Shown here: piece after piece, positions 15,016-31,724 of the stretch
How positions within the stretch are numbered: position 1 is the stretch's first letter
Layout: each line of letters opens with the position of its first letter
NCBI GenBank assembly: GCA_013154295.1
Contig: JAADCS010000149.1
Location: forward strand, 1-40,411
Direction: 5' to 3'
DNA from: Thermotogae bacterium
GTDB taxonomy: Bacteria > Hydrothermota > Hydrothermia > LBFQ01
Length of the DNA: 40,411 nucleotides
The notes under the pieces: model-generated
The model's input: the letters and a program-made list of their open reading frames with translations, nothing else
Database searches by the model: none
What the model was told of the DNA's origin: nothing
Program-made: the position numbers and the translations under genes

Positions 15016-16011
15016 ATGATGTGGTTGATCGCAAATTTCTGGGTAGATCCTTCCTTTCATCTTAAGGTGAAGGAGGCCCTGACAAAAAGGATAGCCGTTA
15101 AGATGCTTAAGGATGAGTTTAAACCGTTCTCCCTATCTTGGGTAGGGTTTACGAGCGGTGCAGCTTGGAGCTATAACATCTCCGGTGAGTTGTATGGCAG
15201 TGGTACCACTCGCGACAGCGTCTTGGCCACAGGCACCATAGACACGCTAGGGTCCTGCTACAAACCGAGCACCGAACTTGCCCTATACGTGAGTATAGGT
15301 TCCACCGATTCCCTCTCCACAATAAACGATACCCTCTTTCTGTATTTTGACGGTACACTCTACGGGGAGGGCGGTTACATGACGGGCAAGTATAACCCCA
15401 GCGTTGGGGATAGTTGGGAGGCCTGGGATACGTGCCTCATCGGACCTCTGAACACCCGTTTTCCCATAGGTGATATAGACGGAGATTCCATAGTAGATAC
15501 GGCGTGGGTCTTACATTCAACTGCCCAGGTCACAAACGCTACATCTTCAGAGTTCGAGGTGGCCTTTAGACCGCTACGGATAAAGGTATGGGGCTCCTAT
15601 CTTTCCTCCGCTTATAACGTAGACTCCGTGGACATATATGAATACGACCGCCACATCTTCTACATAGGGACCGGTAAGTACGCTACCCATATTGATTCGG
15701 CCACCTACATATATTACATAGCTGGTACCCCCTTGCCACAGTCTTATAGCGATCTATACCATAAGGTGATGGTTTTGGACATCAGTGAGAGACCCCGTCT
15801 AAGTGGAGATGCCATGATCATGGAGAATAACACCATAAAGGTGACTTACAGTGGTAACTACGTTTTGCGTGTATATTCAGCGAGCGGAAGACTCCTCAAG
15901 GCTCATAGAAACAACAAACCTGCTACCTACGATCTTCCCTACAGGAAGGGTGTGTACTTCGTTGTTCTTCGCACCGACAAGGGCGTTTTGATCAAACCTC
16001 TTGTGAGATAA
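15016..16011 (+). CDS. Secreted beta-rich protein with type IX-like C-terminal sorting domain
   Basis: A 331-residue protein of unknown function, rich in Gly, Ser, Thr, Tyr and Asp with short strand patterns throughout. Asp-rich loops around residues 140-165 (GDIDGDSIVDTAW) resemble dockerin or thrombospondin-type calcium loops. The last 60 residues (NYVLRVYSASGRLLKAHRNN, YDLPYRKGVYFVVLR, ending in KPLVR) match the same type A sorting-domain pattern as the protein at 12043-13671. The N-terminus MMWLIANFWVDPSF again lacks a basic region and a long hydrophobic core, yet it shares MxWLIA with that protein. Start is ATG 15016 or 15019, eight to eleven bases after TATAAT. Cell-surface or secreted location is inferred. 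Confidence 0.72.
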   Translation: MMWLIANFWVDPSFHLKVKEALTKRIAVKMLKDEFKPFSLSWVGFTSGAAWSYNISGELYGSGTTRDSVLATGTIDTLGSCYKPSTELALYVSIGSTDSLSTINDTLFLYFDGTLYGEGGYMTGKYNPSVGDSWEAWDTCLIGPLNTRFPIGDIDGDSIVDTAWVLHSTAQVTNATSSEFEVAFRPLRIKVWGSYLSSAYNVDSVDIYEYDRHIFYIGTGKYATHIDSATYIYYIAGTPLPQSYSDLYHKVMVLDISERPRLSGDAMIMENNTIKVTYSGNYVLRVYSASGRLLKAHRNNKPATYDLPYRKGVYFVVLRTDKGVLIKPLVR

Positions 16012-28260: not shown

Positions 28261-28854
28261 CTAACGGAGGAGCCCTTCAGTTAGCATACGAACCACCGCC
28301 TCCTCTACAGCTTCCACTTTACTCTTGAAGTCGGTTGGGTTATCAAAGAGATAGCGCATTGAACCGTATATGGCTCCGCGAATGGCGTGAGATATGGCAT
28401 CAACATCCCCACCAATGAAGACGCCATCTTCTTGACCCTGGACGATTATGGAGTTTAAGAGGGAAAAGTATCTATCTTTCCTCTTGAGGTATTCCACTAC
28501 GTTCATTCGCTTAGCCATGGATGAGAAAACAAAACTATAGACGAACCTTAAAAAATCCGGATTTTCCTTCACTTGGCGAAAATGCTCCCTTATCCAAATT
28601 TCCAGTCTCTCCTTGGGAGATTCTACACCTTCAAGTCTATCTTCAAGCTGTCTTAGAGCTTCCTCCTTTAGATATTGGAAGATGTTTATTATCAGATCCT
28701 CCTTGGATCTAAAGTAGAAGTAGAAGTAGCTCTTCGTCTTACCTATCGCCTTGGCCAAATCCTCCATACTCGTGTTATCTATACCTTTTTCTATGAAGAC
28801 ACGCATGGCCTTTAAAATTATCTCACGTCGCCTCTTCTCCCGCTGGCTCCCCAT
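28261..28854 (-). CDS. TetR/AcrR family transcriptional regulator
   Basis: A 197-residue repressor-type protein. The N-terminal helix-turn-helix is clear (IILKAMRVFIEKGIDNTSME, then DLAKAIGKTKSYFYFYFRSK), followed by an all-helical ligand-binding and dimer domain. Typical TetR length. It lies between a barrel-protein gene and rpsU. Its natural targets could be its own promoter, the neighbouring ABC ATPase or the RND permease elsewhere in the window, but no operator palindrome was identified, so this is only a guess. Start ATG has TAAAAT six bases upstream. Confidence 0.92.
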   Translation of the reverse strand: MGSQREKRRREIILKAMRVFIEKGIDNTSMEDLAKAIGKTKSYFYFYFRSKEDLIINIFQYLKEEALRQLEDRLEGVESPKERLEIWIREHFRQVKENPDFLRFVYSFVFSSMAKRMNVVEYLKRKDRYFSLLNSIIVQGQEDGVFIGGDVDAISHAIRGAIYGSMRYLFDNPTDFKSKVEAVEEAVVRMLTEGLLR

Positions 28855-30213: not shown

Positions 30214-30660
30214 TTAGTATTCACCTCGACGCATGGCCTTTTCCATATCGCGCCTCTTTATCTCTTCGCGCTTCTCGTACTTCTTCTTACCCTTGGCCAG
30301 ACCTACGATTACCTTTATCCATCCCCGTTTGTTTATAACCTTAAGGGGTACGGCGGTATAACCTCTCATCGTTATCCGTCCGATTATCCTATCTATCTCT
30401 CGCCGGTGCAATAGAAGCTTGCGCGGCCGTTTAGGATCGGGCTTAAAAACAGCGGTTTTATCGTAAGGGGCTATATGCATGTTGTAGATGTAAAGCTCGC
30501 CATCTTTGGGTCGTATGAAGGCCTCGGCTATACTCACTCTCCCCAACTTTACAGACTTCACCTCGCTCCCGAGCAGAACTATACCAGCCTCGTACGTTTC
30601 CTCTATGTGGTAATTGTGACGGGCCTTACGGTTCTCGGCTATCACCCTTTCGTAAGCCAT
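30214..30660 (-). CDS. smpB: SsrA-binding protein SmpB
   Basis: Delivers tmRNA to stalled ribosomes for trans-translation. The 148-residue product matches the family throughout: AENRKARHNYHIEETYEAGI, VLLGSEVKSVKLGRVSI, AEAFIRPKDGELYIYNMHIA, PYDKTAVFKPDPKRPRKLLL, then the GLAKGKKKYEKREEIKRRD tail. A TTG four codons upstream (30672) is an alternative start. The gene overlaps the end of the DUF2905 gene, so translation is probably coupled. No complete tmRNA gene is in the window, but a tRNA-like minihelix lies just upstream of the two genes. Confidence 0.96.
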   Translation of the reverse strand: MAYERVIAENRKARHNYHIEETYEAGIVLLGSEVKSVKLGRVSIAEAFIRPKDGELYIYNMHIAPYDKTAVFKPDPKRPRKLLLHRREIDRIIGRITMRGYTAVPLKVINKRGWIKVIVGLAKGKKKYEKREEIKRRDMEKAMRRGEY

Positions 30661-30878
30661 AGTGCAAGCCAAAGAATGATGTTCAAAAGGAGCGTAAGGA
30701 GAATGGATAGCAGCAGAGAGGTGCCCAAAGGTAAATAGACCTCAACGTTTCCAAATCGCAAGTGAAAATCAAGGGGTAGACTGGGAAACCTTAATCTGGA
30801 TAGAAACACAAAGATAAAACCTATCAAGATCAGAAACGCCCCTATCCATATGAAAAACTTTCCTAAGATTTCACCCAT
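30642..30878 (-). CDS. DUF2905 family small membrane protein
   Basis: A 78-residue membrane protein with two helices: IWIGAFLILIGFIFVFLS, and LGTSLLLSILLTLLLNIILW. Between them lies a short hydrophilic loop with LPLDFHLRFGNVEVYLP. The pattern (helix, LPxDxxxxxGNxxxYxPLxTS, helix) fits DUF2905. Function unknown. ATG start with AGGAGAG five bases upstream. The gene overlaps smpB, and the tRNA-like minihelix ends 13 bases before its start codon. Confidence 0.85.
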   Translation of the reverse strand: MGEILGKFFIWIGAFLILIGFIFVFLSRLRFPSLPLDFHLRFGNVEVYLPLGTSLLLSILLTLLLNIILWLALWLTKG

Positions 30879-30891
30879 AACTCTCCTAAAA

Positions 30892-30941
30892 TGAGCGGTA
30901 GAGGATTCGAACCTCCACTTTCATCCCCACATAACCGCCCA
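30892..30941 (-). ncRNA. tRNA-like minihelix (acceptor stem plus T-arm only)
   Basis: On the minus strand TGGGCGGT (30941-30934) pairs over eight bases with ACCGCTCA (30899-30892; one G-T pair). Inside it lies a canonical T-arm, GGAGG-TTCGAAT-CCTCT, directly stacked on the 3' strand as in a tRNA. The acceptor 5' strand and T-arm are joined by only about 17 bases, so there is no D-arm or anticodon arm. It could be a tRNA relic, the processed end of an unusual RNA, or a regulatory tRNA mimic in the leader of DUF2905-smpB. Confidence 0.55.
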
Positions 30942-30986
30942 CTAAAGTAATAATTCTAAAGCTGTAACGCTTCACTATAAAATCCT

Positions 30987-31658
30987 CTAGCTAGGGGCTT
31001 CCACAAGGAGAGGAGTATCATCCTGCGAGGAAGATAGTAGCTTTCCAGATCGGTCAAAGATCCATGCACCTCCCGGCGGAAAGGCATTGGTTACGAGCAT
31101 CGTGCTCTTAAACGTGCGCGCTTTCTGCGACATAGCTTCTATATCTTTCTCGTTCAACGGACCGTAGGGTGGGGAATACTCCATGGGTACCAGAAGATAG
31201 TCGGGCCTAACCCTCTTTATCTCCTCAGCTATCCTGTCGTTGTATAAGTCTCCGCAGATGATCATAGCTACCTTACCCCATGGGGTCTCTGCACCCTCGA
31301 GTTTTTCTCCACGGCAGAATCGCATGGGTTCCTGGAACTTCCTATGTTTGAGTATCACCCGCCCGTTAGGAGATACGAGCACTGCCGAGTTATAAACGCA
31401 ATCATCCGAGACCTCCAAGACGCCTGCAGCTATATAGACGTTAAATGAAGTGGCCGCCTCCTTAAGAAGATCCAAAATCGTTCTGTAGAGTCGAGCGGAA
31501 GAAAAGTCCCACATTTTAAAACCGGTAAGGAAGTACTCTGGAAAGACTACCAGTTCGGGAGCGTAATCCATTACCTCCCTCAAGAATCTTTCAAATTCCC
31601 TCCTGTTGTAATCGAACTTTCCCACTCTTACTTCCATAGGGATCAGCGCTACTTTCAT
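30987..31658 (-). CDS. Carbon-nitrogen hydrolase (nitrilase superfamily)
   Basis: A 223-residue amidase or omega-amidase-like enzyme. The Glu-Lys-Cys catalytic triad is visible as E41 (PEYFLTG), K107 (HRKFQEP) and C135 (IICGDLYND). The frame extends 21 codons upstream, but the extra part is low in similarity, and the family normally starts with a strand like MKVALIPMEVRVG, so 31658 is chosen. At 223 residues it is shorter than typical members (about 260-280). Substrate unknown. It is divergent from the thiolase gene and is followed by the tRNA-like minihelix. Confidence 0.9.
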   Translation of the reverse strand: MKVALIPMEVRVGKFDYNRREFERFLREVMDYAPELVVFPEYFLTGFKMWDFSSARLYRTILDLLKEAATSFNVYIAAGVLEVSDDCVYNSAVLVSPNGRVILKHRKFQEPMRFCRGEKLEGAETPWGKVAMIICGDLYNDRIAEEIKRVRPDYLLVPMEYSPPYGPLNEKDIEAMSQKARTFKSTMLVTNAFPPGGAWIFDRSGKLLSSSQDDTPLLVEAPS

Positions 31659-31724
31659 ACTAACTTTTAAGTTTAAGCCGGTTTTGTTTGTACGGTTTCC
31701 CCAACGTGGAAAGCATGCCACCTT

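Follow-up and report, generated by a model that had tools for sequence, protein, structure and literature searches.

A probable internally deleted tRNA-Val gene, most likely persisting as a fossil, upstream of DUF2905-smpB in one WOR-3 species

Results

A tRNA-like element of 49 nt, found just upstream of DUF2905 and the ribosome-rescue gene smpB in the window (the whole stretch of 40,411 nt analyzed here), is very probably an internally deleted copy of a tRNA-Val gene that is restricted to one species and most likely persists as a genomic fossil. The element descends from tRNA-Val, is confined to a single species, coexists with intact tRNA-Val and tmRNA genes elsewhere in the genome, and leaves the operon with a leader altered relative to those of the genus. 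Read on the minus strand from 30940 to 30892, its sequence is GGGCGGT TA TGTGGGGATGAAAGT GGAGG TTCGAAT CCTCT ACCGCTC A, i.e., an acceptor stem, U8 and A9, a 15-nt linker, a T-arm, and a discriminator A, with no CCA encoded at the 3′ end. The acceptor stem comprises 7 pairs, one of which is G•U, or 8 pairs when T-1 (30941):A73 is counted, and the T-arm comprises 5 pairs, also including one G•U, that enclose TTCGAAT. The initial annotation, which had reported an acceptor-like stem of eight pairs, about 17 bases replacing the D- and anticodon arms, and a position 13 bases ahead of DUF2905 with smpB following, proved accurate in sequence and coordinates: the eighth pair is T-1:A73, the spacing from acceptor stem to T-arm is 17 nt (TA plus the linker), 13 nt lie between the 3′ end of the relic and the ATG of DUF2905 (30878), and both genes are confirmed by Pfam matches. 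The elements are arranged on the minus strand in the order TTTATA-17-TAGAAT TATTACTTTAGT acceptor/linker/T-arm/acceptor A TTTTAGGAGAGTT ATG(DUF2905), and their coordinates are collected in Table 1.

Table 1. Features of the relic and of the DUF2905-smpB operon in the window.
Feature	Positions	Strand	Evidence or remark
Promoter-like TTTATA-17-TAGAAT	30953..30981	-	9/12 matches; 0.9 expected by chance
tRNA-Val(UAC)-derived relic	30892..30940	-	Rfam tRNA 27.4 bits; matches own tRNA-Val(tac) at 32/34 outer positions
5′ acceptor strand GGGCGGT (tRNA positions 1-7)	30934..30940	-	7/7 identical to own tRNA-Val(tac)
Linker, 15 nt	30917..30931	-	Replaces 39 nt of tRNA-Val(tac) (tRNA positions 10-48)
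T-arm GGAGG-TTCGAAT-CCTCT	30900..30916	-	Matches own tRNA-Val(tac) at 16/17 positions; C65 to T, paired as G-U
3′ acceptor strand ACCGCTC and discriminator A	30892..30899	-	Matches own tRNA-Val(tac) at 7/8 positions; C71 to T, paired as G-U
Shine-Dalgarno-like AGGAG before DUF2905	30883..30887	-	Sequence
DUF2905 gene (small membrane protein)	30642..30878	-	PF11146, 54.2 bits
smpB (overlaps the DUF2905 gene)	30214..30660	-	PF01668, 187.4 bits

Among the tRNA sequences compared, the closest match to the relic is the tRNA-Val(UAC) of its own genome (G000:C138:105-177, GGGCGGTTA ... GGAGGTTCGAATCCTCCACCGCCCA), which is the same at 32 of the 34 outer positions, including U8-A9 (9/9 at the 5′ end and 23/25 at the 3′ end), while the second-best tRNA of the genome reaches 29/34. 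Both differences from tRNA-Val are C-to-T changes that keep the pairing as G-U. The D-arm, anticodon arm, and variable region, which together span 39 nt, are exchanged for the 15-nt linker, and the linker showed no significant similarity to the missing 39-nt part, with 4223 of 5000 shuffles scoring as well. By eye, the linker could have arisen from the D-arm via transitions, an idea that was rejected because shuffled linkers align equally well. The close match of the outer parts and the absence of tRNA likeness in the middle therefore identify the element as a probable internally deleted tRNA-Val copy, and a deleted tRNA gene, mentioned in the initial annotation as an alternative, fits the sequence well. 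Comparison with the genome's own tmRNA, which agrees at 19/34 outer positions (5/9 at the 5′ end and 14/25 at the 3′ end), supports the deleted tRNA gene and speaks against the mimicry of tmRNA that had been the annotation's first proposal.

The structure is unlikely to have arisen by accident and is that of a tRNA that no longer works. A perfect minihelix of 7+5 pairs with the T-loop consensus was matched 0 times in 1.2 Mb of first-order Markov sequence, and chance can therefore be set aside. The relic scored 27.4 bits against the Rfam tRNA model (E = 0.0018 in a 701-base search), below the gathering cut-off of 29, has no anticodon arm, was not called as a tRNA by ARAGORN, and is unable to decode. 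Because the genome holds intact genes for Val(UAC) (on contig C138) and Val(CAC) and two for Val(GAC), the relic is dispensable for decoding as well. It thus combines the traits of a tRNA relic: descent from a tRNA gene, inability to act as a tRNA, and redundancy with an intact copy. A weak match to "hya RNA" at 31035-31088 was also obtained, but its score of 14.7 bits against a cut-off of 56.8 marks it as a chance hit.

Folding with RNA energies predicted a minimum of −16.7 kcal/mol (z = −2.3 versus shuffles), in which the GGGGAU of the linker pairs with the 3′ strand of the T-arm. The fold resembling a tRNA falls short of this minimum by 1.1 kcal/mol, and the pair probability of the T-arm in the ensemble is 0.08 at 37 °C. 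The acceptor stem, by contrast, is predicted to be stable, six of its pairs having probabilities of 0.97 to 1.0 and the innermost one a probability of 0.75. The canonical T-arm, said at first to be stacked as in tRNA, is thus present in sequence and in pairing capacity, but it is not the favored fold. The fold of the whole leader is unremarkable (z = −1.4).

The distribution of the element was surveyed at several distances. Seven relatives (G001-G007) were compared: five members of the genus, with SmpB identities of 86-89%, and two genomes that share the family. All seven keep DUF2905 followed by smpB, and 0/7 carry the element before them, so conservation ahead of smpB, which the initial annotation had suggested looking for, is lacking at this range, and the relatives show the very arrangement that it had named as contradicting its reading. 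In the own genome, the relic is the only element of its kind among the candidates scored, a limited number per genome here as in all genome-wide statements; the genome has 50 tRNA matches above the cut-off and a complete tmRNA, and the other subthreshold matches were the tmRNA end and a contig-edge fragment. Of two minihelix covariance models, R1 included the relic, and R2 was built without it and therefore provides the fair test. With the latter, the relic ranked first over 40 genomes at 40.5 bits. Each of the other 12 matches belongs to an intact gene for a tRNA or tmRNA, or to the one tRNA that an assembly gap interrupts; nine were assigned from their own sequence and the remainder from where they lie relative to known genes of these two kinds. 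Over 100 smpB neighborhoods, the minihelix model found the relic as the sole real match, the other two hits falling within an intact tRNA-Leu, and a looser scan of 110 smpB neighborhoods gave only parts of tRNA or tmRNA and chance-like matches. The pattern GGGCGGTTA-N(5-30)-GGAGGTTCGAATCCTC had no match in a collection of 84,980 species, from which the own genome may be left out. A phylum-wide family of armless elements was accordingly discarded, as two models and the pattern search yielded no other real member. Among the relatives' sequences, a tRNA gene at G023:C12:60984-61038 (L205) is shortened by an NN assembly gap and mimics an armless tRNA, which is a caution for scans that look for such molecules.

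The relic lies directly downstream of a promoter-like box, and transcription would be expected to start about 6 nt upstream of its first base (about 30946), so that the DUF2905-smpB mRNA may begin with the minihelix. In 7/7 family relatives, a TAGAAT or TAAAAT box is situated 7-9 nt ahead of the DUF2905 ATG, whereas the closest box of this type in the window, TAGAAT, precedes that codon by 74 nt, with the relic and AGGAG in between. The −10 box could be DUF2905's own or could have been brought by the tRNA gene, because −10-like boxes also stand 10-16 nt ahead of the genome's real tRNA-Val genes. Relatives of the nitrilase gene, with 55-57% identity, occur in G001 and G003 on contigs other than that of smpB, and the sequence upstream of DUF2905 varies between most genus members; the junction is therefore lineage-specific. 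No tRNA-Val gene adjoining nitrilase or smpB was found in the relatives as a syntenic source for the relic, nor was a 5S-like or other RNA found upstream of DUF2905 in G006 and G001.

Several minor features of the gene starts were observed in the window. The smpB open reading frame opens at TTG 30672, and its real start is likely the internal ATG at 30660 (30660-30672, minus strand), which is the conserved start in relatives. For the nitrilase (31661-31721, minus strand), the real start is likely an internal ATG at about residue 21, where the relatives' matches begin. A putative open frame of 12 codons, MKVEVRILYRSF, runs across the T-arm at 30886-30924 on the minus strand and stops at AGGAG. 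TANAAT-like boxes are located 6-11 nt before the start codons of many window genes, e.g., at 15016, 38282, and 39553 on the plus strand and at 28854, 30195, and 38240 on the minus strand. Together with the boxes before DUF2905 in 7/7 relatives, this sequence pattern suggests frequent leaderless transcription in this WOR-3 group.

Discussion

The relic probably formed as follows, the order of events being inferred. In a lineage of candidate division WOR-3, now called Caldifarciminota in NCBI, a copy of the tRNA-Val(UAC) gene would have ended up downstream of the promoter and ahead of the first codon of DUF2905-smpB. This copy would then have been deprived of the D-arm, the anticodon arm, and the variable region, leaving 15 unrelated bases for 39, and would have acquired two C-to-T changes. 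The relic is probably copied into the DUF2905-smpB mRNA as a passive 5′ leader, in which the stable acceptor helix may happen to flag the 5′ terminus of the message or attract RNase P. Known from one sequence and absent from the relatives, it may lack a selected function. The outer parts are, however, well kept (94%), in contrast with a linker bare of any tRNA trace, while even drift would be expected of a copy that is simply decaying. This contrast could reflect a single event of deletion with filler, or it could reflect selection on the helix. If formed in this way, the relic shows that a tRNA gene copy can enter the gap between promoter and start codon, be stripped of its middle part, and make the leader of the adjacent operon longer, here at a gene junction specific to the lineage.

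tRNA relics are an already known kind of feature. Like the tRNA pseudogenes and gene fragments of bacterial genomes, the element descends from a specific tRNA of its own genome, has no usable anticodon, and is redundant, but it differs from them in that both ends survive and still pair, with filler between them. Armless mitochondrial tRNAs, which are about 45-50 nt long, have lost the D- and T-arms, retain the anticodon arm, and decode; the relic resembles them in its shortened length, but the arms it lacks are the D- and anticodon arms. The tRNA minihelix, or minimal RNase P substrate, is a laboratory construct of acceptor stem and T-arm. The relic shares these two parts but is genomic, contains a 15-nt linker, has no CCA, and is predicted to adopt a competing fold. 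The tRNA-like domain of tmRNA (SsrA) is likewise an upper tRNA half, consisting of acceptor stem and T-arm without an anticodon arm, from which the relic differs in its tRNA-Val-like sequence and in the absence of a D-like region, a tag-encoding region, and pseudoknots.

An unlikely alternative to the fossil, though the best of those considered, is that the relic now serves as the 5′-terminal structure of the DUF2905-smpB mRNA, where it would shield the message from 5′-end-dependent decay or serve as an RNase P cleavage site, and so shift operon expression in this species. The promoter-like box, which puts the start just ahead of the stem, the widened gap to the ATG with its AGGAG, the stability of the acceptor stem, and the low energy of the relic relative to shuffles are all in keeping with such a role, and bacterial RNase P acts on tRNA-like structures, riboswitches, and some mRNAs in addition to its usual substrates (PMC11143913). 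As a putative substrate for RNase P or the CCA enzyme, both raised in the initial annotation, the relic is structurally plausible, and it might affect mRNA processing. These points are opposed by the missing conservation, and hence the missing sign of selection, by the predicted mispairing of the T-arm, and by the unremarkable fold of the leader as a whole. That a natural minihelix from a tRNA-Val gene was actually recruited as the mRNA's 5′-terminal structure in one WOR-3 species appears quite doubtful. If true, the recruitment would have converted a promoter-near start into one preceded by a leader that carries a ribosome-binding site, and the DUF2905-smpB operon would have come under enzymes that process or bind tRNAs. 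The helix, if used, would represent an uncommon case of a natural minihelix within the leader of a bacterial mRNA.

It is very improbable that the element is an intact tRNA-Val gene mis-assembled in a fragmented metagenome bin. The genome is indeed a 1.97-Mb metagenome assembly of 169 contigs with 6% contamination, and a tRNA shortened by an N gap exists in the relative G023, but the relic contains no N, its linker is ordinary sequence, it bears two additional substitutions, and the 40-kb contig that surrounds it provides unique sequence to its left and right.

Least credible of all is the idea that SmpB, by binding the minihelix in the way it binds the tRNA-like domain of tmRNA, holds down expression of its own operon. 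The location upstream of smpB and the fact that the tmRNA domain is likewise an upper tRNA half completed by SmpB (PMC3985003) suggested such a feedback to the initial annotation, but the proposal found no support, since the element is not conserved in the genus, is nearer to tRNA-Val than to tmRNA, has no counterpart in its linker of the D-like region AAAAGGTCTCGACGG of the own tmRNA, does not favor the T-arm fold, and has no second example in the smpB neighborhoods scanned with either search. Mimicry of tmRNA was rejected on the identity of 19/34 and the missing D-like segment. A two-piece or broken tmRNA was likewise dismissed, as the tmRNA gene at C143:13045-13417 is complete and scores 151.6 bits. 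A tRNA-Arg(CCT) gene (G000:C143:13423-13496) follows this tmRNA gene after 5 nt, and the same pair is present in several relatives of the genus.
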